A DNA stretch of 59,978 nucleotides from Dehalococcoidia bacterium. Lineage in GTDB: Bacteria; Chloroflexota; Dehalococcoidia; UBA3495. Within the stretch, counting starts at the first letter, position 1; each line of letters opens with the position of its first letter. The notes under the pieces were generated by a model. The model was given only the letters and a program-made list of their open reading frames with translations, was not told where the DNA came from and did not search any database. A program made the position numbers and the translations under genes. Location of the stretch: positions 1 to 59,978 of the forward strand of contig JASMCQ010000008.1 in the NCBI GenBank assembly GCA_030753265.1, read 5' to 3'. Positions 16,821 to 58,577 of the stretch are shown in pieces.

Positions 16821-17351
16821 CTAGAGCAGGTTCTGCTCCAACTCTTCTGCCGCCTTGGCCCCTTTCTCGGCCTCTACCTCGTCAGGCTCGCCGGACCGGT
16901 TTTGAGGGTACACGTAGATGCGGAGGTCCGGCATCCCCAAAGCGGCGGCCTGGGCGTGGGCCGCCCGCTCGAAAACGTCGTGTACGTAGACCAGGGTAGG
17001 ATGGCCGGTACTCAAGAGTGCGATCCCGTCGCGCACGGCGGCGGAGGTGCAGGACCCTCAAGCCCCAACCCCAACCAGGGCATAATCCGATTCCCGAACC
17101 ACCCGGTCGATTTCCTCTTGGGCCGCCGGCGTGGTGTGGCTCGGCTTGTATACCTTCACGGTACCGGAAGGCTCGAGGGAACTCTCCACGTTCTCCTCCA
17201 GGTGCTTCCAGAACACGTTAGACGAGATGTGCTGGTTGAATACGTAGCCGACGGCCTTGCCTTTGAGCGTGTCCAGAACAATCTCCTCGGCCCGCTCGGG
17301 CAGAGCGATATCTCCTACTGGGTCGAACAGTCGCATACTCATGGCTCTCAT
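16821..17351 (-). CDS. UGSC-family selenoprotein, copy 1 (UGA read as Sec)
   Basis: A 176-aa protein if the in-frame TGA at 17060-17058 is read through as selenocysteine at residue 98. The first part ends VRESDYALVGVGA, then U-G-S-C-T-S-A-A-V-R-D-G-I and a second domain half (LVYVHDVFERAAHAQAAALGMPDLRIYVYP) follows in the same frame to TAG at 16821. The second half matches copies 2 and 3 (…A..A..LGMP..RI.V.P), so the TGA is internal, not terminal. UGSC is a known selenoprotein family name. The U-x-x-C pair suggests thiol/selenol redox or nucleophilic chemistry. It lies 21 nt after the partner gene and precedes hyuA. Confidence 0.88.
17024..17060 (-). promoter_or_regulatory. Candidate SECIS of UGSC copy 1
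   Basis: Minus strand: the UGA is followed by GGGTCCTGCAC, identical to the other two copies, then a hairpin with CCGT/ACGG arms (17038-17035 and 17029-17026) around a 5-nt GC-rich loop. The loop begins about 24 nt after the UGA, inside the usual bacterial range. The stem is shorter than in copies 2 and 3. Confidence 0.5.
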
Positions 17352-17372
17352 CTCGCGTCCTGGGAAAACGGA

Positions 17373-18446
17373 TCAGGCGTTGGGAAAACGGACGGCTTTG
17401 CTCTGGGTCAGGCCTCCGTGGCTACCCCAGCCGGGGAAAAGGGACGCAAACCCTCCTCCCGAACCCCAACCTCCGGTGGTGAGAATGACCAGGTTCTCCG
17501 GTTTCCGGATGAAGGGTACCAGAGCGTCATCGTCGTCGGGATCAGCTAGCTTGTTCCAGTGGTGCGGGCTGACTTCCGCTATGTTCCGTTTGCGCCTCAT
17601 GTCGTGGACCGGGCGCAGGGCCAGCTGCATTAGCTCTCGGACCACTTCCTGCTTACTGAGACCGCTTTCGGCCAAGTTTTGGGACACCAACGGACTGAGG
17701 GCCAGAATCATGTGCCCGCCGGTCACGTTGTTGCTGCCCAGAGTTGTTATGGCGTCGGCCAGGACGAAGAGCACGTCCTCGGCAGGGCTGTATCCGGCGC
17801 CCGTGCCGATGGAGTGGGGCCCCTCCACGGCGGTCACCGTGACCACCGTCTCGTCCACGCTAAACCCTCGCCCAACGTGGAGCGGCTCCCAGGGGTTGAC
17901 GTCCTGGTTCTCAGCGATGCAGAAGCTGTAATAGCCGGGGTGGCCGTGGGTGGTCTTGCACGGCTCGCCGGGCAGACCGCCCCCGATGTTCCAGAGGATG
18001 AGACGCACCGCCCGCCCGATCGTCGCGTTGGCCCGGGAGCCATGGCCCAGCGCCCCCTCCGTGGTGTTGAAGTCCAGCTTCTTCACCGCCGGACCGCTCA
18101 CGATAACCAGCGGGGCGCAGCAATGGGTTGTCGTCTGCACGCCGTTCAGGTTGAAGGGCTCCTCCAGCATCGCCTCCAGGGCGGCGATGACGATGGGAAC
18201 GTACTCCACCAGGCAGCCGGCCATGACGCAGTTGATGGCGATCTTCTCGATGGTAGCGATGCCGTTTCGAGGGGTGACGATGCCCACCACTTCTTTGGGG
18301 TCTCGGCCCAGGTAGCCGATGATCCGTTCGATCGCTTCCTGGGTGGGAGGCACCACCGGGAGCCCGTCGGTCCAGCCCTGTTGGTAGCAGAATTCCACCG
18401 CCGCCGCTGCGTCCGGCACATCGAATGTTCTCGATCCCAGTTGCAA
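17373..18446 (-). CDS. Conserved UGSC-partner protein, copy 1
   Basis: A 357-aa protein with TTG start (AAGGGGG upstream). I do not know its biochemical function. It is clearly homologous to the genes at 26752 and 57528. Shared motifs are WTDGLPVVPPT (residues ~25-35), EKIAINCVMAGCLVEYVPIV, a CAPLVIVSGP strand, GSRANATIGRAVRLILWNIGG, CIAENQDVNPWEPLHVGRGF and a C-terminal ENLVILTTGGWGS. The invariant Cys of MAGC and the Asp of DGLPV are candidates for active-site residues. There is no signal peptide or membrane helix. It is always next to a UGSC selenoprotein, here the gene immediately downstream, so the two probably form one enzyme or electron-transfer pair. Confidence 0.88.
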   Translation of the reverse strand: MQLGSRTFDVPDAAAAVEFCYQQGWTDGLPVVPPTQEAIERIIGYLGRDPKEVVGIVTPRNGIATIEKIAINCVMAGCLVEYVPIVIAALEAMLEEPFNLNGVQTTTHCCAPLVIVSGPAVKKLDFNTTEGALGHGSRANATIGRAVRLILWNIGGGLPGEPCKTTHGHPGYYSFCIAENQDVNPWEPLHVGRGFSVDETVVTVTAVEGPHSIGTGAGYSPAEDVLFVLADAITTLGSNNVTGGHMILALSPLVSQNLAESGLSKQEVVRELMQLALRPVHDMRRKRNIAEVSPHHWNKLADPDDDDALVPFIRKPENLVILTTGGWGSGGGFASLFPGWGSHGGLTQSKAVRFPNA

Positions 18447-18967
18447 GCCAACCCCCTTCTGCCAGCTAGAACGGCGGATAGCCCGGACTTGGGTTCCCCG
18501 GTGTTCCCCTCACCAAGCCGCCGGGTCCAAGCAGGTACCTCTTGGATAAGAGCCATCCTAGTATCACCCAGGAATGCTGTCAACCATCTCGTCAAGCTCG
18601 CAGGGCCGTCCTCCGGTGTCGTCAGCTAGCCCGCGTGGACAAAGGTTACGTCTTACACCACAAATACACCGCCGGGAGCAAAGTTGCAGCTAAACACGAC
18701 ATAAGACGAACCCACCTGCCGGGTGGCCCAGCTCTCCTGCCGCGACAATCGGCGTCACCGCTTCCTGCCGCGAGGGCTCGCTGCCCACCGTGGGGCGCCG
18801 AGTCCCCTACGGCGCGCTTATAGTCGAACCCGCCAGCCTGTGCGATAATGTATGCAGTACAAAACAGCGTCCCTCGCCAACCCGAGGGGCAAATTTCCTC
18901 TCCAAATCGCCAGGCCCGCCCGGCGGGCAGCTTCAGCTACCGCGAGTGGGCGGGCAAAGGCCGGCAC
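18447..18967. other. Intergenic region, no gene seen
   Basis: About 520 bp between the divergent partner gene and moaD. Neither strand has an ORF with a ribosome-binding site and protein-like composition. It should contain the promoters of both flanking operons, but I cannot fix a convincing -35/-10 pair. I see no Moco-type riboswitch fold. Confidence 0.5.
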
Positions 18968-19213
18968 ATGGAACTGACAGTGAGGTTTTTCGCGTTGTAC
19001 CGGGAGCGGGCCGGCCGCAGCTCCTTCCCGTTGCAGCTCCCCGAGGGAGCAACGGTGGCGGACCTGACCGCGGAGGTCCGCCGGCATTTCCCCAAGCTGG
19101 CCCCACCGCAAGTGCAGATCGTGGTGGCGGTCAACGCCGACTACGCCGGGCCGGAGGCGGCCCTGCACGAGGGCGACGACGTTTGCCTGATACCCCCGGT
19201 CAGCGGAGGATAG
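18968..19213 (+). CDS. moaD: Molybdopterin synthase small subunit (MoaD)
   Basis: An 81-aa ubiquitin-like sulfur carrier. It begins MELTVRFFALYRERAGRSS and ends CLIPPVSGG. The C-terminal Gly-Gly is the site that is adenylated and thiocarboxylated before sulfur transfer to precursor Z. The start at ATG 18968 gives the family length. The frame is open further upstream but without homology. The next gene, moaE, starts 2 nt after its stop, so the two subunits are co-translated. Molybdopterin made here would supply tungsto/molybdo enzymes such as the AOR-family protein at 2.2 kb. Confidence 0.93.
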   Translation: MELTVRFFALYRERAGRSSFPLQLPEGATVADLTAEVRRHFPKLAPPQVQIVVAVNADYAGPEAALHEGDDVCLIPPVSGG

Positions 19214-19214
19214 C

Positions 19215-19676
19215 GTGACAGTCGAGCTTACCCACCGACCACTGGATCCGGAGCGAATCACCGCCCAAGTGCGGCGGGACACCAACGGTGCGGTGGTGAC
19301 ATTCCTGGGCACCACCCGCGACAGCTTCGAGGGCAAGCGGGTGGTCAAGCTGGAGTATGAAGCCTTCGAAGAGATGGCGCTGAAGAAGCTGGAAGAGGTC
19401 CGCCGGGACATTCAGGCCCAGTACGAAATCGAGGACATCGCCATCGCCCACCGCATCGGGACGGTGCCCATCGGCCAGATCAGCCTGGTAATCGCCGTCG
19501 CCTCTCCCCACCGGGAGAAGGCCTTCTTGGCCTGCCACAAAGCGGTGGACCAGCTCAAGGCGACAGTCCCAATCTGGAAGAAAGAGGTCTTCGAGGACGG
19601 CTCCCGCTGGGTGGCCTGCGAGGACCACGAGTTTCAACCGGCGGAGACGGCCGACCGCCACGCCCACGACGGGTAG
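19215..19676 (+). CDS. moaE: Molybdopterin synthase catalytic subunit (MoaE)
   Basis: A 153-aa MoaE with GTG start one base after the moaD stop codon. Family motifs are GAVVTFLGTTRD near residue 25, KLEYEAFEEMALKKLEEV, IAHRIGTVPIGQISLVIAVASPHREKAF and VPIWKKEVFEDGSRWV, the last carrying the active-site lysines (K-K-E). The C-terminus has a His-rich tail. Together with MoaD it converts precursor Z (cPMP) to molybdopterin in the cytoplasm. No other moa genes are nearby. Confidence 0.95.
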   Translation: MTVELTHRPLDPERITAQVRRDTNGAVVTFLGTTRDSFEGKRVVKLEYEAFEEMALKKLEEVRRDIQAQYEIEDIAIAHRIGTVPIGQISLVIAVASPHREKAFLACHKAVDQLKATVPIWKKEVFEDGSRWVACEDHEFQPAETADRHAHDG

Positions 19677-20027
19677 CGGGGCCCCTGCCAGAGGTCTCTG
19701 CGCCGCCCTACACCCCACTCTACCAACGCATGATTATTCGCGCCATTTCGTCGACCTGCTGAGAATCACTCCTGTTGTAGAGCGTAGGGGTTTTGCCCAC
19801 TTCCATCACTACCTCCACCCCTAGGCGCCTGCCCTCGGGCGACCCTTCGGGACGAACACTAACCACCATTGCTTCGTTCACTAGACAGACGGTTTACCCT
19901 GAGGAACCACAGGAACACAGGAAGATGCGCTCGCAATACGATTAGGCTCACGAGCGGTTCTGAGCTTCCCGCGAAACATTGGCAATGCCACCTGGTCCCG
20001 AGCCCTGCGGGCGGTCCAGGAATTCGA
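19677..20027. other. Intergenic region between convergent genes
   Basis: About 350 bp between the 3' ends of moaE and radA. I see no coding ORF, RNA gene or strong hairpin with a T-run. Confidence 0.5.
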
Positions 20028-21467: not shown

Positions 21468-21506
21468 CCGTGGCCTCCCTGGTCAGGCTGGGCCAAGTAT
21501 AACAGC

Positions 21507-21534
21507 AGAAGGCCCCGCCACGGCGGGGCCTTCT
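21507..21534 (-). terminator. Terminator-like hairpin between clpC and radA
   Basis: A perfect 13-bp inverted repeat (AGAAGGCCCCGCC / GGCGGGGCCTTCT) with a 2-nt centre lies in the 104-bp gap after clpC. It lacks a long T-run on the minus strand, so it may attenuate rather than fully stop transcription into radA. Confidence 0.65.
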
Positions 21535-21571
21535 GTCAGTGCAAACAGTGCAAACCTGTGGGCGTTGAAGC

Positions 21572-24543: not shown

Positions 24544-24559
24544 AAGCTATTTCCCTACC

Positions 24560-24588: not shown

Positions 24589-24662
24589 GGGGCCGTGAGG
24601 AATCTATCGATTGTCACGTTATTGTTGCAGCTCCCGCCGTCAGAGGACAAATGCCCGCTCTG

Positions 24663-24730: not shown

Positions 24731-25867
24731 ATGGGAAGACGCCTTTTTAAAGAACTGGAGCGGGCTTACGGCTTCGACGAGGTCGCGATCGTTCCAGGTC
24801 AAGTCACCATTAACCCGGACTTGACCTCTACCACGATGACCATAGGGGATCAGACCTTCGAGATACCGGTGTTGGCCTCGGCCATGGATGGGGCCGTGTC
24901 CCCCCGATTCGCCACCTTGATGAATCAAATGGGCGGGCTGGGTGTACTGAACGCCGAGGGCCTGTACACCCGGTACGAAGACCCCTACTCCGTGCTTGAA
25001 GAGATCATCTCCGCGCCCCAGGCGGAGGTAACCCACCACCTCCAACAGGTCTACTCCGAACCCATCCGGGAGCACTTGGTGGGGGAGCGGGTCCACGAGA
25101 TCAAGAAGTCCGGCTCGGTCTGCGCCGTCTCCTTCACCCCTCAAAACGCCAAGCGGATGTCCCCGGTTGCCGTGGAAGCTGGGGCCGATATCGTGGTGGT
25201 GCAGTCCACAGTGACCACGGCGAGGCACATGTCCCGAAGCTACCGGGGTCTGATCTTTTCCGAGATGATAAAGACCCTCAACGTCCCGGTGATGGTGGGC
25301 AACTGCGTGACCTACGAGGTGGCCCTGGAACTGATGGAAACCGGCATTGACGGGATCCTGGTCGGAGTGGGACCCGGCGCCGCCTGCACCACCCGCGAGG
25401 TGGTGGGGGTCGGGGTCCCCCAGGTGACCGCCACCCTGCAGTGCGCCACCGCTCGGGATGACCACTTCCGCCGCACCGGGCGCTACGTGAACGTCATTAC
25501 CGACGGCGGGTTTCGCACCGGAGGGGACATCTGCAAGGCCCTCGTCAGCGGCGCCGACGCCGTGATGCTGGGAACTCCCTTTGCCCAGGCCGAGGAAGCG
25601 CCGGGACGGGGACACAACTGGGGCATGGCCAACCCCCATCCCGAGCTGCCCCGGGGCACCCGCATCAAGGTGGGCACCAAGGGGACCCTGCAGCAGATAC
25701 TGTTTGGCCCGACGTCCGCCACGGACGGCACCCAGAACTTCATCGGCGCCCTGCGGGTTGCGATGGGCATGTGCGGCGCTTACACCATTCGAGACATGCA
25801 CCGGGCTGAAATGGTCGTCGCCCCGTCGATCAAGACCGAGGGCAAGTACTTCCAGTTGGGTTTGTAG
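24731..25867 (+). CDS. GuaB3-type IMP dehydrogenase-related protein
   Basis: A 378-aa TIM-barrel protein of the IMP dehydrogenase/GMP reductase family, shorter than housekeeping GuaB because it lacks the inserted CBS pair. The catalytic loop is visible as [20 protein letters not shown] with Cys219. [26 protein letters not shown] is the phosphate-binding region, and [15 protein letters not shown] the early motif. It resembles the GuaB3 class (IMPDH-related proteins of actinobacteria and Chloroflexota), whose main reaction (IMP oxidation or GMP reduction) cannot be settled by eye. Promoter-like elements precede it. Confidence 0.9.
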
Positions 25868-26154: not shown

Positions 26155-26697
26155 ATGGCAGATGACATCCGCACGGTCCAAATCCTTGACCCGACCGCCG
26201 AGGACGTACCCGAAGAGCTGGGCCTCAGCCCGAAGCTCCCCGACCTGAAGGGAAAAGTGGTTGGCCTCTTGGAAAACCGCAAGTATCATGCCGACGCTTT
26301 CCTGCAAGAGCTTCAGGATGTTTTGGTCCAGGACTACGGGGCGGGCAAGGTAGTGTATACCACCAAGTTCACCTACAGCGCGGCCTGCGCGGAAGAGACC
26401 CTGGACACCATGTCCGCCGAGTGCGACGTGATTATCCACGGAATCGCGGATTGAGGGTCCTGCACGGCGTGGGGTCTCCACGACACCGTAGCGACCGAGT
26501 CCAAAGGGGTTCCGTCGGTCAGCGTGATAACCAGTGCCTTTACCCGGGCGGCGCATGCCCGGGCGACCTTCCTGGGAATGCCGGGCGCCCGCATTGTGGT
26601 CCTGCCCAGCCCTCTGGCCACCCGCAGCTCTGACGAAGTCCGCCAGATGGCCCACGAGTACGCCTCGGAAATCGTCGGTCATCTCGCCGGCGACTAG
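26155..26697 (+). CDS. UGSC-family selenoprotein, copy 2 (UGA read as Sec)
   Basis: A 180-aa protein with selenocysteine at residue 100 encoded by TGA at 26452-26454. The ATG at 26155 has AAGGAGG 8 nt upstream. The N-terminal half includes LPDLKGKVVGLLENRKYHAD, a strand-helix unit also seen in copy 3 (DLKGATVAILNNRWTSMD). After CDVIIHGIAD comes U-G-S-C-T-A-W-G-L-H-D-T-V, then GVPSVSVITSAFTRAAHARA, LGMPGARIVVLP and a stop at 26697. The frame, GC and homology continue unbroken across the TGA. Its partner gene starts 54 nt downstream. The paired nucleophiles (Sec and Cys) suggest redox catalysis, but no reaction is established here. Confidence 0.9.
26452..26484 (+). promoter_or_regulatory. Candidate SECIS of UGSC copy 2
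   Basis: Directly after the UGA: GGGTCCTGCACGG, then CGTGG (26468-26472), loop GGTCT (26473-26477) and CCACG (26478-26482). The loop opens 19 nt after the UGA, within the usual bacterial SECIS distance, and starts with two G residues, as expected for SelB recognition. Confidence 0.75.
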
Positions 26698-33498: not shown

Positions 33499-34584
33499 AT
33501 GGCGTTCGCGAATGCAATCACGCCAGGGGAACGGCTTCAGGCGCTCAAGAAGTGTATCGCCCGCCAGGGCTTCGCCCGCATAATGGAGGCTCACAACGGT
33601 CTCAGCGGCATCATTGCTGAAACCGTACGAGCCAAGAAGGGCGGCCGGACCATCGAATACGACGGCCTTTGGGAAAGCAGCCTGACCGACTCCGCCAGCA
33701 AAGGGATGCCCGATTGTTCCATCGTCGGCTTCGATTCCCGCACCCAAACCGTTGACCAGATCCTCAACGTGACCAACAAGCCCATCCTCGTGGACGGCGA
33801 CACCGGGGGGGAACCCGCCCAGTTCGAGTATCTGGTGAGGCAACTGGAACGCCTGGGCGTGTCGGCGGTGATCATCGAGGACAAGGTCTACCCCAAGCGA
33901 AACAGCCTGGACGCATCCGCCTGCCAAAACCTGGAAGACCCCCGGATTTTCGCCGGAAAGATCGCGGCCGGCAAAGACGTGAAAGTCACCGATGACTTCA
34001 TGATCGTGGCCCGCCTGGAAAGCTTGATCGCCGGGGCGGGCCTGGAGGACGCCCTGTACCGGGCCGAATGCTATATCCGCGCCGGGGCCGACGGGATCAT
34101 GATTCACTCGAATAACCGGGACCCCGCCGAAGTGCTCGCCTTCGCCGAAGCCTACGGCCCCCTCTGCGAGGGGCTGGGGAGACGCCCAGCCCTGGTGTGC
34201 GTGCCGACTACCTACAACACCATCTCCGATCAGGAGTTGGTAGCCAGAGGATTCAACGTCATCATCCATGCTAATCACCTCCTGCGCGCCGCCTACCGGG
34301 CCATGTGCGAGGTTGCCCTCAATATCCTGGAGACCGGCAGCAGCCATGAGGCAGACTCCCTCTGTTCACCGGTCCGGGAGATTTTTGACTGTGTGGGCCA
34401 CGACCGCATCACCGAGAAGGACCGGGAGCGCGAGCAGGCCCTTCACCAGACCAGCGGCTCCGGGAGCGTCAAGGGAGACCCGCGGCTGGTCAAGGTGAAA
34501 TATGTTGGGAGGACGACGAGCAAATCAGGCGCACGGGCGAGACTGTCGTCAACATCAAATGGACCGGCCCGAGGCGCCCGATAG
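33499..34584 (+). CDS. pepM: Phosphoenolpyruvate mutase
   Basis: A 361-aa enzyme of the PEP mutase/isocitrate lyase superfamily, which converts phosphoenolpyruvate to phosphonopyruvate, the entry step of almost all phosphonate biosynthesis. The diagnostic motif EDKVYPKRNS is at residues 127-136. VDGDTGG (98-104) is the Mg-binding segment, and IMEAHNGLSGIIAE the early substrate-binding part. The tail from about residue 335 (after DPRLVKVK) turns into a Ser/Arg-rich stretch, while another frame looks more protein-like, so the C-terminus may be frameshifted. It is followed 30 nt later by a two-subunit decarboxylase that pulls the unfavourable equilibrium. Confidence 0.94.
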   Translation: MAFANAITPGERLQALKKCIARQGFARIMEAHNGLSGIIAETVRAKKGGRTIEYDGLWESSLTDSASKGMPDCSIVGFDSRTQTVDQILNVTNKPILVDGDTGGEPAQFEYLVRQLERLGVSAVIIEDKVYPKRNSLDASACQNLEDPRIFAGKIAAGKDVKVTDDFMIVARLESLIAGAGLEDALYRAECYIRAGADGIMIHSNNRDPAEVLAFAEAYGPLCEGLGRRPALVCVPTTYNTISDQELVARGFNVIIHANHLLRAAYRAMCEVALNILETGSSHEADSLCSPVREIFDCVGHDRITEKDREREQALHQTSGSGSVKGDPRLVKVKYVGRTTSKSGARARLSSTSNGPARGAR

Positions 34585-34614
34585 CATGATCGACGAACTT
34601 ACGATGGCCCGCCA

Positions 34615-35109
34615 ATGAAAGCGCAAGCCTTCTGGGAGGTCCTGAAACAACGCGGCCTGACCTTTTTTTCCGGCGTACCGGATTCCACCTTTCATGAAGT
34701 GTATAACGCCATGGCCGGCGTTCCGGAGATCCGTTACGTCCCGGCCGTGCGGGAGGACGTGGCCCTTGGCGTCGCCAGCGCCGCTTACTTCTCCGGGCAG
34801 TTGGGGGGCGTGATCTTGCAGAACTCGGGAATCGGTAACCTCGTCAACCCTTTGACCTCCTTCAGCCTGATGTACAAGATCCCAGTGCTCCTCCTGATTG
34901 GCTGGCGCGGGTACGGGGGACCGCCCAACGACGCTCCGGAGCACTGGATCATGGGAGTCAAAACACCGGAGATATTGGACCTTCTGGGAATCCCCTACGA
35001 AATACTGGAACCGGACAATATGGAGCCCGCCCTGGACCGGCTGCTGACGAATATCAGGGAACAATCGGTGCCGGGGGCGCTGTTGGTCCGCGCGGGGATG
35101 GTAGATTGA
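34615..35109 (+). CDS. Phosphonopyruvate decarboxylase, N-terminal (Pyr) subunit
   Basis: A 164-aa protein equivalent to the N-terminal thiamine-pyrophosphate Pyr domain: FFSGVPDSTFHEVYNAM, then REDVALGVASAAYFSG with the conserved Glu-type contact, LQNSGIGNLVNPLTSF and VLLLIGWRGYGGPPNDAPEHWIMG. In one-chain phosphonopyruvate decarboxylases this domain is fused to the PP domain. Here they are separate genes as in ComD/ComE sulfopyruvate decarboxylase. The neighbouring PEP mutase favours phosphonopyruvate as substrate, giving phosphonoacetaldehyde. Its TGA overlaps the next start. Confidence 0.9.
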   Translation: MKAQAFWEVLKQRGLTFFSGVPDSTFHEVYNAMAGVPEIRYVPAVREDVALGVASAAYFSGQLGGVILQNSGIGNLVNPLTSFSLMYKIPVLLLIGWRGYGGPPNDAPEHWIMGVKTPEILDLLGIPYEILEPDNMEPALDRLLTNIREQSVPGALLVRAGMVD

Positions 35110-35678
35110 TTCCTCGATACCTGGCAATCGAGAAGGTCCTGGAACACGTTCAGCCCGCCGACCTAGTCCTGAGCACCACGGGAATGATCTCCCGGGAGGT
35201 GTTCGTGTCCGGCGACCGGGCCGGGAATTTCTACATGCTCGGGTCCATGGGCCTCCTGTCCTCTTTCGGACTGGGGCTGGCGCTCTTCAACCCGGAGCAG
35301 CGCGTCTTCGTGCTGGAAGGTGACGGCAGCGCCCTCATGAGCCTCGGTGCTGTGCCCCTTATCGGCTCCGAGGGCCCCGGCAACTTGATCCACATCATCC
35401 TGGACAACGAAGCCTACGAGTCCACCGGAGGGCAGCCGTCCATCAGTTCCGGGTTCGACCTGACCCGGGTGGCCGAGGGCGCCGGGTACCGCACCGTAGC
35501 CCGGACCGGCGATGTGGAAGGGCTTCAGAGCGCCCTCTTGGAGTGCGCCCGCGGTCCCGGCCCTCACCTGATTCTGGTCAAGGCCGGAATCGTCCCGGTC
35601 AAAGGTATTCCCCGGGTTTCGCACTCGCCCACGGACATCCGGGACCGGTTCAACAGCAGCGTTCACGCGGGGGAATGA
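35106..35678 (+). CDS. Phosphonopyruvate decarboxylase, C-terminal (PP) subunit
   Basis: A 190-aa TPP-binding subunit with a TTG start at 35106 overlapping the stop of the preceding subunit. The ThDP/Mg motif is GDGSALMSLGAVPLIG ... IILDNEAYESTGGQPS, and the middle carries FYMLGSMGLLSSFGLGLALF. With the upstream subunit it would form the active site at their interface and release CO2 from phosphonopyruvate. The stop codon overlaps the aminotransferase ATG as ATGA, so at least three genes of the cluster are translationally coupled. Confidence 0.9.
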   Translation: MIPRYLAIEKVLEHVQPADLVLSTTGMISREVFVSGDRAGNFYMLGSMGLLSSFGLGLALFNPEQRVFVLEGDGSALMSLGAVPLIGSEGPGNLIHIILDNEAYESTGGQPSISSGFDLTRVAEGAGYRTVARTGDVEGLQSALLECARGPGPHLILVKAGIVPVKGIPRVSHSPTDIRDRFNSSVHAGE

Positions 35679-36751
35679 AAGAGATGCTGATACTGTCACC
35701 AGGGCCGGCAAACATCTCGGAGCGCGTGCGCCAGGCCCTGACCGCCCCTGACATCGGGCACCGGGAGGAGGAGTTCACCTCCCTCCTCCGGGAGACCCGT
35801 TCCCTGCTTCTGGATATCTGCGGCGCCCCCGAGGGCTACTCCTGCGCCACCCTCAGCGGGTCGGGCACGACGGGCATCGAGGCCACCATCACCTCCCTGA
35901 GCGCCTCCAGCGGCGTGCTCATCTTTTCCAACGGGGTCTACGGCGAGCGGGCGGCCCAGATCGCACAGGTGTTCGGCATTCCCCACACCCTGGAAAAGCT
36001 GGAATGGACCCAACCCCTCCCGCTGGGCCGGGTGGAGGAGTTGGTCCGGACTACCCCCCATGATTCGGTCTATTTGATACACCACGAGACCACCACCGGC
36101 ATCCTCAACCCCCTGCGTCAGGTGGCGGAGATCGCGAAAAGCAATCACAAATGGGTACTGGCGGACACGGTGAGCAGCGTGGGAGGTGAGGAGTTAGACC
36201 TACCGGGTTGGGGCGTGGACCTGGTCCTAGGCTCTGCCAACAAGTGCCTCCGGGGAGTCCCCGGGGTATCGTTTGTCGTCCTCTCCAACCAACTCCTAGA
36301 AGCCTGGTCCCAGCGGCGCCAGGTGACCTTCTCCACCGACCTGGTCAGCACCATGAGCAAGGAGGAGGACGGCGAGACCCCGTTCACGCCGCCGGTTCAA
36401 ACCATGTACGCCCTACGTGAGGCAGCCAGGGAGTTGTTGGAAGAGGGGGTGGAGAACCGGATCGCCCACTACCGGGGCATCGCGACAACCCTGCGCGACG
36501 GCTTGACGTCTCTGGAGCTGGACTTCCTGGTCCCCCGCGAGCACCTGTCCAACACCATGACCACGGTGATGCTGCCCGAGGGCTGGTCCTACCCGGAGCT
36601 GCACGCTCCCCTCAAGGAGCGGGGATACGCCATATACAAGTCTCAGGGGCACCTGAGCCAGACCACCTTCCGCCTCGGTACGGTCGGCCTCATGAGTCAA
36701 GAGGATATACGCGGATTTCTAACCGCCCTGCAGCAAGTGCTGGGCCGGTAA
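35675..36751 (+). CDS. 2-aminoethylphosphonate-type aminotransferase
   Basis: A 358-aa fold-type I PLP aminotransferase of the class V/PhnW group, starting MKEMLILSPGPANISERVRQAL. The typical landmarks are LSGSGTTGIEATITSL, the PLP-contacting VLADTVSSVGGEELDL and the Schiff-base lysine in GSANKCLRGVPGVSFV. In a cluster with PEP mutase and phosphonopyruvate decarboxylase it would convert phosphonoacetaldehyde to 2-aminoethylphosphonate, the reverse of the catabolic PhnW reaction. The ATG at 35675 overlaps the stop of the decarboxylase subunit, so I set aside the longer open frame. Confidence 0.91.
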   Translation: MKEMLILSPGPANISERVRQALTAPDIGHREEEFTSLLRETRSLLLDICGAPEGYSCATLSGSGTTGIEATITSLSASSGVLIFSNGVYGERAAQIAQVFGIPHTLEKLEWTQPLPLGRVEELVRTTPHDSVYLIHHETTTGILNPLRQVAEIAKSNHKWVLADTVSSVGGEELDLPGWGVDLVLGSANKCLRGVPGVSFVVLSNQLLEAWSQRRQVTFSTDLVSTMSKEEDGETPFTPPVQTMYALREAARELLEEGVENRIAHYRGIATTLRDGLTSLELDFLVPREHLSNTMTTVMLPEGWSYPELHAPLKERGYAIYKSQGHLSQTTFRLGTVGLMSQEDIRGFLTALQQVLGR

Positions 36752-36769
36752 CGAACGAAGGGGGCAATG

Positions 36770-37396
36770 ATGCCCGAGGAAAACAAGGTCCAGTGGGTGT
36801 ACTCTTCGCGGAACAACCAGGAGCTGGAGGAGCGGTACGACCAGTGGGCGTCGGGATACGAAGCCGACCTCACCAGGGACTTCGACTACCTAGGCCCCCC
36901 GAGGGCCGCTGAAGTCCTTTCCCGCCACGTGCCCAAGGATGCCCGCATCCTGGACGCCGGGGCCGGCACCGGCCTGGTGGGTCAGGTCTTGGCCGGACTC
37001 GGATACGGCAACCTGACCGCCGTGGACCTCTCACAGGGCATGCTGGAGGAGTCCCGCGGCAAGAACGTGTACCGGGAATTGCACCAGATGGTCATGGGGG
37101 AGCCTCTGGACTTTCCCAGCGGCGCCTTCGACGCGGCAATAAGCGTGGGGGTGCTGACCGTAGGCCACGCCCCGGCCAACTCCCTGGACGAACTGGTGCG
37201 GGTGACCAAACAAGGGGGGCACATCGTCTTCACCCTGAGGCCCGACGTGTATGAAACCGGCGGCTTCAAAGAGAAGCACGCCGCGCTGGAAGCTGAAGGC
37301 AAATGGCGGCACGTCGAGACCACCGAGCAGTTTCAAACCCTGCCCAAGGGCGAGCCCGACGTCTACCACCAGGTATGGGTATATCGGGTAATGTAG
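36770..37396 (+). CDS. SAM-dependent methyltransferase of the phosphonate cluster
   Basis: A 208-aa class I methyltransferase. The SAM-binding motif I is ILDAGAGTGLVGQVL, followed by acidic motif II in LTAVDLSQGML and motif III-like FDAAISVGVLTVGH. Of two adjacent ATGs I use 36770, because AAGGGGG is then 5 nt away. It is 18 nt after the aminotransferase stop and probably the last gene of the operon. It may modify the phosphonate product, for example N-methylation of 2-aminoethylphosphonate, but the acceptor is unknown. Confidence 0.85.
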   Translation: MPEENKVQWVYSSRNNQELEERYDQWASGYEADLTRDFDYLGPPRAAEVLSRHVPKDARILDAGAGTGLVGQVLAGLGYGNLTAVDLSQGMLEESRGKNVYRELHQMVMGEPLDFPSGAFDAAISVGVLTVGHAPANSLDELVRVTKQGGHIVFTLRPDVYETGGFKEKHAALEAEGKWRHVETTEQFQTLPKGEPDVYHQVWVYRVM

Positions 37397-48188: not shown

Positions 48189-49445
48189 ATGAAGCTCGTC
48201 GTCGTAGGCGCCGGCCAGGGTGGATCGAACATCGCCGATGAGTTTGTTGCGATGGGGAAGTGGGTGTGGAAGAACAGGCGCATCCGAATCTTCACCGGGA
48301 ATGAGGGTGACCCGATCTGCCGTGGGGTATTCGCGGTAAATCTCGGGGCGGGGGACCTGTACGGACTTCACCATATCCCCCTCACTGATGACCACGCAAT
48401 CTTGTTGGGGACCACTGATGAGTTCCGGGGACGTGGGGCGGGCAAGGTCAATGCTGACGGGGCGGAACAGGCCCGGCGGGACGGAAGAAAAATAGTGTCG
48501 ACCATACGGGATAACGGCGATGTCCCCACCGCCGACGCGATAATGGTGATCGCCACCACCGCTGGAGGTACCGGTTCCGGCTCGGTGGGTGTCATCGTGG
48601 ACCTTCTCAAAGACGCGTTCAAGAAGCCCGTTTACGCCATGCTGATCCTCCCATTCGCTAATCAGTATGACGACCCCGATAGCCTGGTGAATACCGCCAC
48701 ATGCCTGAAGAAGGTACTCGACAACTCTCAGGCCGACGCCGTGTTTCTGATTGACAATCAGAAGTTTGTCCGAGGCAGCGAGACCATGAGCCACAACTAT
48801 GCCCAGATCAACCGGCGGATCGCTGACTCTTTCATGGATATCTTGTGCGTGGGCGAGGAAACTGAACGCCGGTTTGTTGGCGAGGTCCTCGACGCCAACG
48901 ACGTCATACGGATCCTCAACGGTCCCACGGCCCTGGGCGTGAGCCAGACGCGGGTGCCCAAGAAATCCTCTTCCCTACTTAATCGGTTCAAGCGGGATGG
49001 CTCGAACAGCAAACACTTCGCCACCTCCAAAGCGCAGATCGAGAGGGCCCAGAGCGTATTGAACCGGGCACTGGGTGAGCTATCCATCGACTGCGAGTTT
49101 TCGAACAGCGGGGACGCGACCTACGATGCCCAGCACGTTCTCGGCCTCTTCTCCGGGCCTTCCCAAGAAGCCACCGAAGAGATAGTCGAGATGATGGACA
49201 ACTGTCTCTCGGAGCGAGTACCGGGGGCTGGGCGCCGGAAGGGGACCTATCCGGGAAGGACCTCGGACACGATCAGCATCACGGTAATCGTATCCAACCT
49301 CGGCCGCGGCGCCGCTATGGACCGGATACATTTTTTCTACACTGAAGCCACGAAGATGATGGAGGCGGTCCAGAAAAAGAAGCAAGGTAGAGAAAAACGT
49401 TGGGAAGAGGCCGCGAAGTCGGCGGCTCTCCTGCCCAGCCTCTAG
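48189..49445 (+). CDS. Divergent FtsZ/tubulin-family GTPase
   Basis: A 418-aa protein of the tubulin/FtsZ superfamily but not a cell-division FtsZ. The nucleotide-binding N-terminus is VVVGAGQGGSNIADEF, and the tubulin signature is A-G-G-T-G-S-G-S at residues 125-132. The T7-loop region reads EVLDANDVIRIL, keeping the two catalytic acidic residues (D..D) but lacking the usual Asn. The typical FtsZ C-terminal peptide is absent. The tail is Lys/Arg-rich (QKKKQGREKRWEEAAK). Start follows AGAAGGAG. It may belong to the FtsZ-like groups proposed for membrane remodelling. The membrane-anchored gene downstream fits that. Confidence 0.87.
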   Translation: MKLVVVGAGQGGSNIADEFVAMGKWVWKNRRIRIFTGNEGDPICRGVFAVNLGAGDLYGLHHIPLTDDHAILLGTTDEFRGRGAGKVNADGAEQARRDGRKIVSTIRDNGDVPTADAIMVIATTAGGTGSGSVGVIVDLLKDAFKKPVYAMLILPFANQYDDPDSLVNTATCLKKVLDNSQADAVFLIDNQKFVRGSETMSHNYAQINRRIADSFMDILCVGEETERRFVGEVLDANDVIRILNGPTALGVSQTRVPKKSSSLLNRFKRDGSNSKHFATSKAQIERAQSVLNRALGELSIDCEFSNSGDATYDAQHVLGLFSGPSQEATEEIVEMMDNCLSERVPGAGRRKGTYPGRTSDTISITVIVSNLGRGAAMDRIHFFYTEATKMMEAVQKKKQGREKRWEEAAKSAALLPSL

Positions 49446-53308: not shown

Positions 53309-53664
53309 TGCAGCACGCCGTTGTTCGTGCGCCGCGCTCGGACGGTGCCGGTGGCGATCAAAAGAGCCATCGGCGCCCGGACCCTCCGAATCCTGGTCCG
53401 CCCGTCGCCGCCCACAAGCTGGTTCGGTACTCTCCCCCCGCCCCCAACCTCTTACCTCAACCTCCAACCGAATTGGGGCGTAACCGACTTTCCAGGAACC
53501 CGCCCGCAGGCCGGCTCGCCAGGAGCGGGCGATTTCCGTTCGTGGTGAGCTTCCTGTTCGTGGCGAGCTTGTCGAACCACAGCGGCAGGGTCTCGATATG
53601 GCTCCGATTGAAGCGGGCGGCAGATGGCCGCTTGAAACCGACACCAGCAGTAGCGGGGTAGCCG
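53309..53664. other. Intergenic region with dispersed repeat
   Basis: About 356 bp with no supported gene. At 53538-53580 lies a dispersed repeat of the form CGTTCGTGGTGAGCTT...GTTCGTGGCGAGCTTGTCGAACCAC, related to the element at 58610. Confidence 0.5.
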
Positions 53665-54885
53665 ATGGCGCTTGACTTTCTCGAAGGGATCAACGTCTTG
53701 GATTTGGGGCAGGGAATCAGCGGGCCTTTCTGCGCAAAGCTGCTCGCCGACCTGGGCGCCAGGGTGGTCAAGGTGGAGCCGCCGGTCGGAGACTCATCCC
53801 GAGGTGTGGGACCCTTCCCCGGCGACCTACCCGACGCTGAGAAGAGCGGCACCTATCTGTCCATGAACACCAACAAGCTGGGGATCACCCTGAACGTGGA
53901 GACCGCCGGCGGCCGGGAGCTTTTGCTGCAACTGGTTGATGGAGCCGACATACTGATCGAAAACTACCCGGCCTCATACCTGCCGGGGATTGGCCTGGAC
54001 TTTGCCACCCTCCACACCCGGAACCCCGAGTTGGTGATGACCTCCATCACCCCCTTTGGGCTGACGGGCCCCTGGGCCAACTACCAGGCCGACAATCTGA
54101 TCATATGCAATGTCAGCGGCCATTCCCGGGAACACCCGGGCCCGGTGGAAGACCTGGAAACGCAACCACCCCTGCAACTGGCGGCTCACCAGGCTGATTT
54201 TGTCGCCGGCCTGGCTGGGGCCACCGCCACGATGCTGGCCTTCAACCGGCGCCGCCTTGACGGCGTCGGCAGCCACGTCGACGTATCGGGGATGGAGGCC
54301 TTGGCTCTGCTGCCCCAGACCACTCTGGCCCAATTCGCGCTGGGCCAAGAAGCCCGCGGCCAGCACCGGGATGAGCCGACCCGCCTGGCCCTACTGGCCC
54401 TGCTTCCCTGCCAGGACGGTTACGTGGGCGTTTCACCCCGCCAGCAGGACCAATGGGATAATTTTGTGACCCTCCTGGGCAACCCCGAATGGGCGGCGGA
54501 CCCCAAGTTTGCCACCCGGGACTCCCGTTTGGCCAACTGGAACGAGCTGGAGCCTCGGCTGATTGCCTGGTCATCCGGATTCAAGAAGGACGATATATAC
54601 CGCCAGGCCCAAGCTCACCACGTTCCTTCCTTCCCGTTGAATACCGCCGCCGACCTTTTCAAGTCGGCCCAATTCGAAGCGCGGGAGTTCTTCCACGAGG
54701 TGGAGCACCCCGCGGCCGGGACGCAGCGTTATCCCGGCGTCCCCATCCAGTTGGCGTCCGGCAAGAAGCTGGAGTTGACTCCCGCCCCATTGTTGAGCCA
54801 GGACACCCAGGCCATCCTGGGAGACGGCGGCCTGGGGCTGAGCCGGGAAGAGATAGCCGCGCTACGAGTCGCCGGCACGATCTGA
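53665..54885 (+). CDS. CaiB/BaiF family (class III) CoA-transferase
   Basis: A 406-aa formyl-CoA-transferase-like protein that would move CoA between organic acids. It starts MALDFLEGINVLDLGQGISG with the family motif ISGPFCAKLLADLGARVVKVEPP, GDSSRG, SMNTNKLGITLNV and ENYPASYLPGIGLD. The active-site Asp is expected in LAAHQADFVAGLAGA. It is the first gene of a run of five co-oriented genes with a flavin-reductase-like protein, a second class III CoA-transferase and a UGSC/partner pair, suggesting activation of one carboxylic acid substrate. Confidence 0.92.
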   Translation: MALDFLEGINVLDLGQGISGPFCAKLLADLGARVVKVEPPVGDSSRGVGPFPGDLPDAEKSGTYLSMNTNKLGITLNVETAGGRELLLQLVDGADILIENYPASYLPGIGLDFATLHTRNPELVMTSITPFGLTGPWANYQADNLIICNVSGHSREHPGPVEDLETQPPLQLAAHQADFVAGLAGATATMLAFNRRRLDGVGSHVDVSGMEALALLPQTTLAQFALGQEARGQHRDEPTRLALLALLPCQDGYVGVSPRQQDQWDNFVTLLGNPEWAADPKFATRDSRLANWNELEPRLIAWSSGFKKDDIYRQAQAHHVPSFPLNTAADLFKSAQFEAREFFHEVEHPAAGTQRYPGVPIQLASGKKLELTPAPLLSQDTQAILGDGGLGLSREEIAALRVAGTI

Positions 54886-54908
54886 AGAATGCGAAGGGGG
54901 TGAGCCCA

Positions 54909-55547
54909 GTGAGGATAGACCCGCAGAATTTCGAAGGCTTCAACCGCGTGCTGACCGCGGTGGTGGTCCCGCGTCCCATCGCCTTCGTCTCCACCATATC
55001 CACCGACGGATTCGTCAACGTCGCGCCCTACTCCTTTTTCAATGTGATGTCTTACAATCCGGCGACCGTGGTCTTCTCTTCCTCCCGCCACACTGGAGGA
55101 GGACGAGGGAAACGTAAGGACACGCTGGCGAACATCGAAGAAACCGGGGAGTTCGTCGTCAACATAGTGGTCGACGACATCGCTGAAGCCATGAACCTGA
55201 CCGCCGCCGAGTACCCCACCGAGGCCAACGAGTTTGAAATCGCCGGATTGACTCCGGCGCCATCGGAGTTGGTAGCCCCACCCCGCGTGGCCGAGTCGCC
55301 GGTGAACATGGAATGCCGGCTGAAGCAGGTGATTTCCCTGGGAATCGGGAAGGGCCGGCACGGCCTGGTCATCGGCGAAATCGTACTGATGCACGTCCGC
55401 GACGACCTGATAGACGGGCACCGCATCAACCACCAGAAGCTCCGGCCCACGGGCCGCTTGGCCGGAAATATGTATTGTCACACCGTCGATACCTTCGAGC
55501 TGGTCCGTCCCAATTACAAAGAGGGAGAAAGCCCGCAAATAGGCTGA
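54909..55547 (+). CDS. Flavin reductase-like split-barrel protein
   Basis: A 212-aa FMN-binding split-barrel protein, related to flavin reductases that supply FMNH2 to monooxygenases. Motifs are VVVPRPIAFVSTISTDGFVNVAPYSFFNVMSYNP (flavin-binding core), KDTLANIEETGEFVVNIV and ESPVNMECRL. The GTG at 54909 follows GGGGGTGAG. It starts 24 nt after the first CoA-transferase. It could be the reductase partner of a luciferase-like monooxygenase such as the one at 4.3 kb, but none is adjacent, so it may act on its own substrate. Confidence 0.88.
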   Translation: MRIDPQNFEGFNRVLTAVVVPRPIAFVSTISTDGFVNVAPYSFFNVMSYNPATVVFSSSRHTGGGRGKRKDTLANIEETGEFVVNIVVDDIAEAMNLTAAEYPTEANEFEIAGLTPAPSELVAPPRVAESPVNMECRLKQVISLGIGKGRHGLVIGEIVLMHVRDDLIDGHRINHQKLRPTGRLAGNMYCHTVDTFELVRPNYKEGESPQIG

Positions 55548-55676
55548 CCCCAGAGTCCCCAGGAATCGCGAGACCGGCAACATGGGCTCGCGGCCCGCTT
55601 GTTTCCAACCCGGGCGCCACCTTTTTCCCGAGGAGCCGGGAATGGGCAAGCCCTAGGAAAAGGAGCGTTCAACCTC

Positions 55677-56849
55677 ATGCGCCAACTGCCTCTGGAGGGA
55701 GTAAGGGTTACCGACCTTAGCTGGCAAATTGCCGGCCCCACCTGCAACCGCTACCTGGGGATGATGGGAGCGGAGGTAATCCGCATCGAAAGCAACAAGC
55801 GCCCGGACCCCTACAGGGAGCGGGTCATCAACAATTTCATCAACCAGTCGAAGAAAAGCATCACGCTGAACCTGGGGCACCCCAAGGGTACAGACCTCGT
55901 CCGGAGGCTGGCCGGCCTGAGCGACATTGTGATGGAGAACTTCGCCTGCGGTGTCATCGAGCGCCTGGGGCTGGGCTATGACGAGTTGCGCCGGGCCAAC
56001 CCGGACATCATCATGCTCTCTTCGGCCGGCCTGGGCCACTCCGGCCCAGACATGAAGCAGGTGGCCTACGGCACCCTGATCCAGTGTTTCACCGGCTGGA
56101 GTTCCCTGCAGGGCTATCCCGACGGGGGCCCGGAGATAGGCGGCATCTGGACCGACCCGGTGGTGGGAATGCTGGAGGTATTCCTGATTAACGCCGCCCT
56201 CCACCGCAAGTGGCAGCAGGGGGAAGGTCAATATATCGACCTCTCCATGGCCGAGGCCACCACCATGCTGCTTCCTGAAGCCATCCTGGATTACTCGATG
56301 AACGGCCGGATCCAGGAGCCGCGAGGCAACCGGCACCAGGCCCACGCCCCCCACGGCAACTATCCCTGCCTCGGCTACGACCGCTGGATCGGAATCGCCG
56401 TGACCGGTGATTCCCAGTGGGAGGCCCTGTGCCGGGCCCTCGGCTGCGTGGAATTGCTGGAGGACTCCCGGTTCTCCGACGCCATGGCCCGCTGGAAGAA
56501 CCAGGATGCTCTGGACCGGGCCCTGGCCGCCAAAACGAGGGATCATGACGCCGATGAGCTGACGGCCAAGCTGCAAGAGGCCGGGGTGCCCGCGGGGCCA
56601 ACACTGGCCGTCGACCAACTCTGGACCAACACCCATCTCCGGGAGCGAGGCTTCTTCCAGAGCTACGAGACTGAGGATGGAACGATCCGGGATATCCCCG
56701 GCGTACCCTGGCGGTTCGACGGCGCCGCCGACGCCAATATGACTCCTCCGCCCCTTCGGGGCCAGCACAACGCGTACGTCTTCGAGGACCTGCTGGGTCT
56801 GTCCAAGCCGGAGATCGAGGCCCTGGTCGAAGAGCAGGTAATCTACTGA
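55677..56849 (+). CDS. CaiB/BaiF family (class III) CoA-transferase, second copy
   Basis: A 390-aa class III CoA-transferase. The N-terminus LEGVRVTDLSWQIAGPTCNRYLGMMGAEVIRIE is followed by NNFINQSKKSITLNLGHP, ENFACGVIERLGLGYDEL and the active-site region GGIWTDPVVGMLEVF with the catalytic Asp. RGNRHQAHAPHGNYPCLG replaces the usual substrate segment. The ATG at 55677 has AAGGAG upstream. It diverges from the copy at 53665 and could form a heteromeric pair with it, as some benzylsuccinate-type CoA-transferases do. It lies upstream of UGSC copy 3. Confidence 0.92.
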   Translation: MRQLPLEGVRVTDLSWQIAGPTCNRYLGMMGAEVIRIESNKRPDPYRERVINNFINQSKKSITLNLGHPKGTDLVRRLAGLSDIVMENFACGVIERLGLGYDELRRANPDIIMLSSAGLGHSGPDMKQVAYGTLIQCFTGWSSLQGYPDGGPEIGGIWTDPVVGMLEVFLINAALHRKWQQGEGQYIDLSMAEATTMLLPEAILDYSMNGRIQEPRGNRHQAHAPHGNYPCLGYDRWIGIAVTGDSQWEALCRALGCVELLEDSRFSDAMARWKNQDALDRALAAKTRDHDADELTAKLQEAGVPAGPTLAVDQLWTNTHLRERGFFQSYETEDGTIRDIPGVPWRFDGAADANMTPPPLRGQHNAYVFEDLLGLSKPEIEALVEEQVIY

Positions 56850-56939
56850 TACCGGGTCCGCCCGTTACCGTGGTTCGGAAAAGAGACTATAATCAATCCA
56901 TGCCATCATGGGGTGACCACCACGACAGGAGTTCGAAAC

Positions 56940-57494
56940 ATGACGAGTAAGATTTCGATACTGAGCCCAGCCGCCGAGGCCTGGCGTCCCGTTGAGGCCA
57001 CCGTTCCTCGCATCGATGACCTGAAGGGCGCCACCGTTGCCATCTTGAACAACCGGTGGACCAGCATGGACATCATCTCAGAGCAGATCGCCATCATCCT
57101 CAAGGAGCAGTACGGCGTGGCCGATGTGTTCGAGTTGGGGATACCCACGTCCTCCAAGGCGTCCCGGGAGACCTTCGAAGAAGTCTTGTCCCGGGCGCAG
57201 ATGGCCGTGGTGGGCCTGGCCAATTGAGGGTCCTGCACCGCGTGGAGTGTCCACGACAGCGTTGAACTGGTGAAAGAGGGAGTGCCCTCGGTGGTTTTGG
57301 TTACCGAGCGGTTTGTCCCCCTCGCCAAAGCATCCATGAAGGGCAACGGCGTGCCCGACGCGCCGATGGTGGTGCTGCCGAAGACCGAACTCACCGAGTA
57401 CGTCCCGCCGGAGACCGTCCGGGTGGTGGCGCGGGAGACCGTTGCCCAGATAATCGCCCAGCTGAGCACCGCCGCCGCGCCAAACGGCCCGTAG
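56940..57494 (+). CDS. UGSC-family selenoprotein, copy 3 (UGA read as Sec)
   Basis: A 184-aa protein with selenocysteine at residue 96 (TGA 57225-57227). ATG 56940 has AGGAG about 8 nt upstream. The N-terminal part has IDDLKGATVAILNNRWTSMD and a helical segment, then MAVVGLAN-U-G-S-C-T-A-W-S-V-H-D-S-V continues without a frame change to VPSVVLVTERFVPLAKASMK and the TAG at 57494. The sequence after the UGA matches copy 2 (U-G-S-C-T-A-W, then V/L-H-D, then GVPSV), so truncation there is excluded. The partner gene starts 33 nt downstream. It closes a CoA-transferase operon, so the substrate may be a CoA ester or acid. Confidence 0.9.
57225..57257 (+). promoter_or_regulatory. Candidate SECIS of UGSC copy 3
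   Basis: After the UGA: GGGTCCTGCACCG, then CGTGG (57241-57245), loop AGTGT (57246-57250) and CCACG (57251-57255). The stem bases are identical to copy 2 while the loop differs, and the loop opens 19 nt after the UGA. Confidence 0.75.
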
Positions 57495-57527
57495 CGGACT
57501 ACCCGAGCCCAACCCAAGGAGCGATGC

Positions 57528-58577
57528 TTGGCCCAAGTACGAGACCTCACATCATCCAGCCTTCCGGCGGACGACTCTCCCGAGTCGGTGTTCCAGCTGA
57601 TGTTGGACCAGGACTGGTCCGACGGCTTGCCGGTAATTCCGCCCACCCCGGACCGGGTCCACTCCATGGTGGAGGGAAGCCGCCGGGACCCTTCTCACCT
57701 GGTGGGTTACATCAACCCCGAGGGGGGCGCCGCCACCGTGGAGAAGATCGCGGTCAACGCGGTGATGGCCGGGTGCTTGCCCGAGTACATGCCGGTGCTC
57801 ATCGCCGCCGTGCAGGCCATAACCGAGCCGGGGTTCAACATCCACGGTATCCAGACCACCACCAACCCAGTGGCCCCCGCCCTCATCATCAACGGCCCGA
57901 TCCGCAATCAGCTAGGCGTCAACAGCGGCCGCGGCTGTCTGGGCCCCGGCTGGCGGGCCAACGCCACCATCGGGCGGGCCCTGCGGTTTCTGCTCATCAA
58001 CGTGGGGAACGCCAAGCCCCTGACCACCGACATGGCGATCCACGGGATGCCCGGCAAGTACACCTTCTGCTTCGGCGAGAACGAGGAAGAGAGCGTCTGG
58101 GACCCGCTTCAAGTGGAGCGCGGCCTGGCCCCGGACCAGAGCGCCGTCACCGTGGTCGGCTCCCAGGGCACCAGCAACTGTCTCACCCTCTACAAAGAGG
58201 CGGAAAGCATCCTCACGGTGATCGCCAGCGCCATGGCCGATTTCAGTGACAACAACTACCTGCTGGGCGGAGGTAATCCGATGCTGGTGTTGAGTCCGGG
58301 ACACTCCCGGGTGCTCACCGAGCAGGGCTTCACCAAGCAGGCGGTCAAAGAATGGCTCTTCGAGCACTGCAAGATTCCCTTGGACCGGATCCCCCAGGAG
58401 ACCTCGATCGTCCACTACGAGAAGGAGTTCGTCAGGGATGGTGATTTGGTCTGTCTCTGCCGCAGCCCCGAGGACATCGTGGTGGTGGTCGCCGGTGGCC
58501 CGGAGCCGTACCACGCCACCTACTGCGCCAGCTTCGGCGACACCCAGGCCGCGACCAAACTGGTGGCGACGGACTAG
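57528..58577 (+). CDS. Conserved UGSC-partner protein, copy 3
   Basis: A 349-aa homologue of the genes at 17373 and 26752. TTG at 57528 is chosen because AAGGAG ends 6 nt upstream. The ATG at 57524 is in another frame and too close to the RBS. Motifs: WSDGLPVIPPTPDRV, EKIAVNAVMAGCLPEYMPVL, APALIINGPIRNQLGVNSG, GWRANATIGRALRFLLINVG, CFGENEEESVWDPLQVERGL, and a C-terminal SPEDIVVVVAGGPEPYHATY. The enzyme activity is unknown. The strict co-occurrence with UGSC is the main functional clue. Confidence 0.88.
   Translation: MAQVRDLTSSSLPADDSPESVFQLMLDQDWSDGLPVIPPTPDRVHSMVEGSRRDPSHLVGYINPEGGAATVEKIAVNAVMAGCLPEYMPVLIAAVQAITEPGFNIHGIQTTTNPVAPALIINGPIRNQLGVNSGRGCLGPGWRANATIGRALRFLLINVGNAKPLTTDMAIHGMPGKYTFCFGENEEESVWDPLQVERGLAPDQSAVTVVGSQGTSNCLTLYKEAESILTVIASAMADFSDNNYLLGGGNPMLVLSPGHSRVLTEQGFTKQAVKEWLFEHCKIPLDRIPQETSIVHYEKEFVRDGDLVCLCRSPEDIVVVVAGGPEPYHATYCASFGDTQAATKLVATD

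Follow-up and report, generated by a model that had tools for sequence, protein, structure and literature searches.

Three UGSC selenoprotein modules in the window

The DNA analyzed (hereafter the window) is a stretch of 59,978 nt from a Dehalococcoidia bacterium (assembly GCA_030753265.1, contig JASMCQ010000008.1, forward strand, positions 1-59,978). Three modules are found in it, each formed by a gene of the UGSC selenoprotein family and an adjacent gene for a second protein, here called the partner (Table 1). An in-frame UGA is present at the UGSC motif of all three selenoprotein genes and is read, by comparison, as selenocysteine (Sec). Proteins of 173, 180, and 193 aa are obtained in this way for modules 1, 2, and 3, respectively; from the ATG at 56940 the protein of module 3 has 184 aa. 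The frame beyond the UGA is open and conserved in all three.

UGSC has been published as a selenoprotein family since at least 2008 (PMC2398784), and in the accessible part of that survey of the aquatic Global Ocean Sampling (GOS) data it is among the more frequent families, with 255 Sec copies and 21 cysteine homologues (PMC2398784). The accessible portions of the published accounts found give no function for it. The Pfam model UGSC (PF24696, cut-off 25 bits) matches the proteins of modules 1, 2, and 3 with 113.4, 171.9, and 115.8 bits, respectively, over nearly their whole length and with Sec at the motif, which bears out the earlier note's report of three UGA codons inside homologous proteins. 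The equivalog NF041046 (curated cut-off 125 bits) is reached by module 2 alone (139.7 bits); modules 1 and 3, which have diverged further, score below it (78.5 and 80.2 bits).

Pairwise identity among the three UGSC proteins is only 24-33%, so they are regarded as old paralogues; to judge from their sequences, the modules are old separate lineages and not recent duplicates. The partners of modules 2 and 3 are each 39% identical to that of module 1 and belong to one family, as the same note had proposed for the proteins of about 350 aa beside each UGSC gene. The occurrence of the three modules is real and beyond chance. TGA also serves as an ordinary stop here, since it terminates the partner gene in module 1 and in module 2.

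Table 1. Positions of the three modules, their candidate hairpins, and neighboring genes in the window
Feature	Coordinates	Strand	Remarks
Module 1 UGSC selenoprotein gene	16821..17342	-	Sec codon TGA 17060-17058, residue 95 from ATG at 17342
Module 1 partner, 357 aa	17373..18446	-	No Pfam/NCBIfam match
Module 2 UGSC selenoprotein gene	26155..26697	+	Sec codon TGA 26452-26454, residue 100
Module 2 partner, 356 aa	26752..27822	+	No Pfam/NCBIfam match
Module 3 UGSC selenoprotein gene	56940..57494	+	Sec codon TGA 57225-57227, residue 96 from ATG at 56940
Module 3 partner, 349 aa	57528..58577	+	No Pfam/NCBIfam match
Module 1 candidate SECIS hairpin	17025..17045	-	Register shifted from family consensus, 5-nt loop, weak alone
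Module 2 SECIS hairpin	26467..26483	+	Stem CGTGG/CCACG, loop GGTCT
Module 3 SECIS hairpin	57240..57256	+	Stem CGTGGA/TCCACG, loop GTG
HyuA-like hydantoinase/oxoprolinase A	14658..16781	-	Directly downstream of module 1; bounds of open reading frame (ORF) mechanical
HyuB-like hydantoinase B	12919..15123	-	ORF bounds mechanical; listed ORF overlaps HyuA
IMPDH/GuaB-like protein	24731..25867	+	Upstream of module 2
Two family-III CoA-transferases	53665-54885, 55599-56849	+	Upstream of module 3

Decoding of the in-frame UGA

Among 575 GTDB stretches whose relationship to the partner was confirmed, the best 80 were searched, together with the window, with an iterated UGSC profile and with TGA read through. 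This search gave 93 matches, three of them gapped at the site. The codon at the site of the other 90 is TGA in 84, a cysteine codon in five (TGC in four and TGT in one), and CAG in one. The CAG copy, at L030:5206-5727, is a UGSC domain in which Sec/Cys is lost and Gln stands at the site. Cys forms of UGSC that have a partner also occur in cultured organisms, for example Natrialba asiatica, Natrinema, and Sphingobium. Homologues that end at the UGA had been named in the earlier note as a refuting case; none was found, and all 84 TGA copies run past the codon.

The Sec machinery was surveyed in 50 genomes chosen by the author among 72, with all five Cys loci included. A selB match above the cut-off appears in 38 of 40 genomes with a TGA copy and in 0 of 5 with a Cys copy (Fisher 1.7e-5); of the two TGA genomes that lack one, one carries selB in pieces. 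A tRNA-Sec of at least 57 bits is detected in 37 of 40 and 0 of 5 genomes, respectively. Five genomes with a partner and no UGSC gene in the locus have selB in 5/5 and tRNA-Sec in 4/5. Weaker tRNA-Sec matches of 42-53 bits, found in many genomes, are probably other long-arm tRNAs. On the scale of the class of a close relative, UGSC was found in 94 of 294 genomes (93 above the cut-off), with exactly one TGA per UGSC match among the matches listed. When the UGSC and selB listings were compared by eye, selB at E<=1e-62 was present in 86 of the 94 genomes with UGSC and in 114 of the 200 without it (p 6e-10). The closest relative compared, G045 (DnaE 71% identical; among the matches listed, the runner-up in score has 54%, and values as high as 60% are reached over shorter stretches), has both selB (344 bits) and tRNA-Sec (66 bits).

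Several points weigh against so clean an association. The 57-bit line for tRNA-Sec was chosen after the scores had been seen, and the Rfam cut-off of 47 bits passes 45 of the 50 genomes. The Cys genome G047 has a selB match that stays below the cut-off, at 204.9 bits. Eight UGSC genomes, including G094 with at least 11 UGSC matches, are without a selB match at E<=1e-62; incomplete assembly is the likely reason.

The window contains exactly three copies of TGAGGGTCCTGCAC, located at 17060-17047 (-), 26452-26465 (+), and 57225-57238 (+), so the 14-base identity described in the earlier note is exact. With the codon usage of the window and independence assumed, the chance that the Gly, Ser, and Cys codons agree in all three copies is 0.005, and some constraint is therefore likely. 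The same note took the identity as the mark of a shared selenocysteine insertion sequence (SECIS), for which it turned out to be weaker evidence. The 11 bases 3' of the TGA, GGGTCCTGCAC, are found in 9 of the 84 TGA copies, three of which are those of the window, and 39 distinct 11-mers directly follow the TGA across the 84. The wobble bases of Gly and Ser vary across the family. The 14-base identity is notable, yet it is no family-wide rule.

To judge from the alignments, the SECIS signal resides mainly in a hairpin that lies 15-31 nt past the first base of the UGA, and in statistics at the level of the family. RNA stability was compared with synonymous-codon shuffles for 48-nt segments at 12 offsets in 81 complete TGA sequences. 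The RNA is more stable than the shuffles at UGA+0, with a mean z of -1.21 (standard error (se) 0.14, n=81); mean z is -0.67 at +6, -0.60 at +12, and between -0.37 and +0.35 at the other nine offsets. For the five Cys homologues a mean z of -0.31 (se 0.31) was obtained, with n too small to tell much. The hairpin was aligned in 76 of 77 distinct complete sequences, L044:16362 being omitted for its shifted motif. In columns 16-22/26-32, 86.1% of the cells are paired, versus 76.9% in shuffles, and the covariation is 0.243 versus 0.130 (reached by 0/500 shuffles). At one pair, G-C is swapped for C-G in 21 of the 76 rows. Four of five hairpin measures lie above nearly all shuffles.

The cleanest test of constraint after the UGA is the comparison of codons between true orthologues. 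Modules 2 and 3 are both found in G045 on one contig and in the same setting; where pieces align, their DNA is approximately 74-82% identical. The first 35 nt from the UGA are identical in the syntenic orthologue of module 2 in L114, as are the first 38 nt in that of module 3 in L068. Degenerate codons for the same amino acid are unchanged in 19 of 20 cases at UGA+1 to +11 and in 123 of 236 elsewhere (p 8e-5); a few codons 5' of the UGA are likewise unchanged in both orthologue pairs. A hairpin downstream of the UGA, as looked for in a bacterial SECIS, is thus seen at family level in stability, covariation, and orthologue codons.

Other observations count against the hairpin. That of module 1 is off the consensus, in a shifted register which can also form in L001 and L002, and the single RNAs of modules 1-3 do not differ significantly in folding from dinucleotide shuffles (z 0.53, -0.86, and 1.43, respectively). 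Offset -102 is also slightly off zero (mean z -0.37, se 0.10). Pairs changed on both sides are not above shuffles (4 vs 3.7), the hairpin counts are inflated by the kinship of the sequences, the helix was chosen from the same sequences, and an RNAalifold consensus structure is almost absent.

The view that the three genes are pseudogenes, arisen by nonsense mutation from former Cys genes, draws on the in-frame TGA itself, and nothing further was found for it. It is contradicted by the comparative data, namely a TGA shared at this codon by 84 of 90 matches, a conserved C-terminal half, the association with selB, and the codon constraint in orthologues, and its probability is negligible. The earlier note's preference for Sec over three nonsense mutations is upheld by these data. 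The UGA is almost certainly decoded as Sec with the aid of the putative hairpin just downstream.

The partner protein and the likeness of UGSC to GrdB and PrdB

From 107 partner matches, two fragments and three at contig edges were dropped, and 102 were used. For 87 of these, a same-strand UGSC gene lies no more than 500 bp away (upstream of 61 and downstream of 26), and four further partners have one less than 1 kb away; the co-occurrence that had been put forward for mapping is thereby documented. The distance matrices of UGSC and partner correlate with r 0.74 over 86 pairs, the best of 2000 permutations giving 0.16, and in each window module the two proteins share the same nearest relatives. 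Natural fusions of UGSC and partner, with CGSC, are found in P0126 and P0151. They are like the 'UGSC/Unknown_1' fusion of the 2008 GOS selenoproteome paper, which, compared by the accessible text only, joins UGSC to a conserved unnamed domain (PMC2398784). The 888-aa P0144 is also labeled PF24696. In P0120, a UGSC domain fused to the partner has lost the motif (LGTE).

Among 7999 candidates scored in one search, at least 7982 homologues of the partner were found. Asp32, Arg150, Glu184, and Trp191 (module 3 numbering) are invariant in 85 partners. It speaks against the pairing that some partners stand alone (e.g., L033, L046, L048, L056, L059, L063, and L072), those with no UGSC gene found nearby being from Poribacteria and a few others. 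The partner shows no similarity to PDB sequences at E below 0.9. In the Poribacteria loci L045, L046, L048, L059, and L063, the ORFs that hold the partner homologues are 319-337 aa long, and no UGSC gene was seen close by; the contig of L045 ends shortly past the homologue. From the sequence comparisons, the protein of about 350 aa is very probably a regular partner of the UGSC selenoprotein that diverges with it and is sometimes fused to it.

UGSC was compared with GrdB and PrdB (PF07355), which belong to the glycine, sarcosine, betaine, and proline reductases. The GrdB motif is of the type Sec-Gly-x-(Cys/Ser/Gly)-Thr and is followed by a similar region 3' of it. GrdB is also like UGSC in gene pairing, since its genes adjoin that for GrdE, a component of about 400 aa. 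The two differ in size (UGSC has about 170-190 aa, and the PF07355 model has some 350 positions), and the UGSC partner, unlike the neighbor of GrdB, is unrelated in sequence to GrdE. A PF07355 match appears in 15 of 16 genomes searched (14 above the cut-off), and full-length GrdB adjoins GrdE in four.

With hhalign, the UGSC profile aligns with six GrdB sequences at 87% probability over 94 columns and with 18 PrdB-like sequences at 90% over 72 columns, in both cases Sec on Sec; the partner profile gives 0.1 and 2.1% with the same sets, respectively. Compared sequence by sequence, 10 of 24 PF07355 members score above the best of 126 unrelated neighbors. At E<0.01, a hidden Markov model (HMM) of the 24 members detects 26 of the 72 UGSC proteins searched versus 0 of 326 controls. 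The second Cys of the motif is kept in 79 of 84 TGA copies and replaced in five (four Ser and one Ala), and it is absent in four of the six GrdB sequences compared. Because UGSC and GrdB can both lose this Cys and retain Sec, a Sec nucleophile fits better than a disulfide exchanger. The copies with TGA and Ser for the second Cys are L027:9612, L035:9488, L036:998, and L067:1417. An AlphaFold2 (AF2) model of the fusion P0126 is confident, with a pLDDT (predicted local distance difference test) of 91.6 and a pTM (predicted template modeling score) of 0.90, and its predicted elements repeat as strand then helix.

To be set against this likeness, the reverse search passes just two of the 24 PF07355 members at E<0.01, both GrdB (3e-4 and 3e-3). 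The similarity to GrdB comes from 6 + 18 sequences, is centered on the Sec site, and was obtained with U scored as C on both sides. The Pfam GRDB model (PF07355) gives no match up to E 10 with the three window UGSC proteins, and the partner profile shows no similarity to seven GrdE sequences (hhalign 0.1%). By this GrdE comparison, and with no Pfam match to the partner, no pyruvoyl component of the GrdE type is recognized in it. UGSC is probably remotely related to the part of GrdB/PrdB that bears Sec; Sec would lie immediately ahead of helix 3 in a beta-alpha repeat.

Proposed enzyme and genomic setting

The observations as a whole are best explained, at a probability of roughly 0.6, if each module encodes one two-component, Sec-dependent enzyme. 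The partner would bind and position a small substrate of the organic-acid type, and the selenolate would attack it in a reductive cleavage or substitution. A thiol/thioredoxin system would then restore the selenolate, in the manner of GrdB/PrdB but minus their pyruvoyl subunit. This chemistry, drawn by analogy, is tentative and carries a somewhat less than even chance.

In the accessible part of the 2008 paper, UGSC is proposed to be a thioredoxin-like UxxC thiol-disulfide oxidoreductase, which would reduce the partner or other cell proteins (PMC2398784). The frequent Cys at the second motif position speaks for this, but that Cys is dispensable while Sec remains, and the predicted strand-then-helix repeat may tell against it. 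Since each UGSC lineage has a single co-diverging partner, a role as a general reductant is disfavored, and the proposal is considered unlikely. Less likely still is a lyase or hydrolase with its catalytic site in the partner, in which UGSC would bind a metal or thiol cofactor. The invariant partner residues and the HyuAB genes beside module 1 are in keeping with such an enzyme, as is a weak likeness of the partner to class-I fumarase and cyclic-amide hydrolases, its top-ranked, weak structural matches being the fumarase alpha 7xky_A and Toblerone-fold hydrolases.

The neighborhoods of the modules differ, as the earlier note had observed: HyuA/HyuB lie at module 1, an IMPDH-like protein at module 2, and two family-III CoA-transferases at module 3. 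The segment 24414-25860 upstream of module 2 also aligns in the closest relative, L114. The 126 nearest ORFs of the sample include 13 TctC-type binding proteins, four luciferase-like monooxygenases, and three each of enoyl-CoA hydratases, thiamine pyrophosphate (TPP) enzymes, amidohydrolases, LysR regulators, and NHL repeats; TctC (11) and luciferase-like proteins (7) are also on top among the 115 next ORFs. This context resembles peripheral organic-acid catabolism, without one pathway standing out. A point against the proposed enzyme is that no family among these 126 and 115 ORFs is frequent enough to name a substrate. The note had further suggested a reusable module whose substrate input is exchanged. 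The modules do recur beside differing neighbors, which agrees with a reusable enzyme; with an exchange of substrates this is consistent, and it does not prove one. The chance that the paralogous modules serve different substrates, with the partner setting which, is put at about even.

At least 11 UGSC matches are present in 5 of the 294 class genomes. Among the 86 pairs compared, the nearest relatives of the module 1 partner are in betaproteobacterial metagenome-assembled genomes (MAGs; L001 70%, L002 65%), which suggests, by sequence, horizontal transfer of module 1. None of six copies examined in G045 aligns as an orthologue of module 1. L035 and L071 are labeled Bordetella parapertussis; both are metagenome-assembled contigs, and the label may be a misassignment.

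Elsewhere in the window, a cluster resembling phosphonate (aminoethylphosphonate-type) biosynthesis lies at 33499-37396 (+), with phosphoenolpyruvate (PEP) mutase, a class-V aminotransferase, a methyltransferase, and the N- and C-terminal parts of a thiamine enzyme on two separate ORFs. A protein of the Tubulin/FtsZ family that matches the CetZ C-terminal domain is found at 48189-49445 (+), and an aldehyde ferredoxin oxidoreductase (N and C domains) at 2166-4073 (+).

The selenoprotein family is already known; the pairing, the multiple copies, and the likeness to amino-acid reductases point to an enzyme type that is uncharacterized. The paired module and the GrdB/PrdB likeness are the parts worth following. 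A broader proposal, held to be speculative and rather doubtful, is that UGSC and partner form an undescribed superfamily of two-component selenoenzymes, which would perform pyruvoyl-free reductive bond cleavage of the GrdB/PrdB type, have been duplicated in some Chloroflexota genomes to 11 or more copies, and dismantle many different organic acids there. The regular partner and the probable kinship with GrdB/PrdB provide a concrete biochemical hypothesis and indicate which proteins to express together and assay. Should the numerous copies be working enzymes, the supply of selenium could be tied to the breakdown of organic matter in Chloroflexota.

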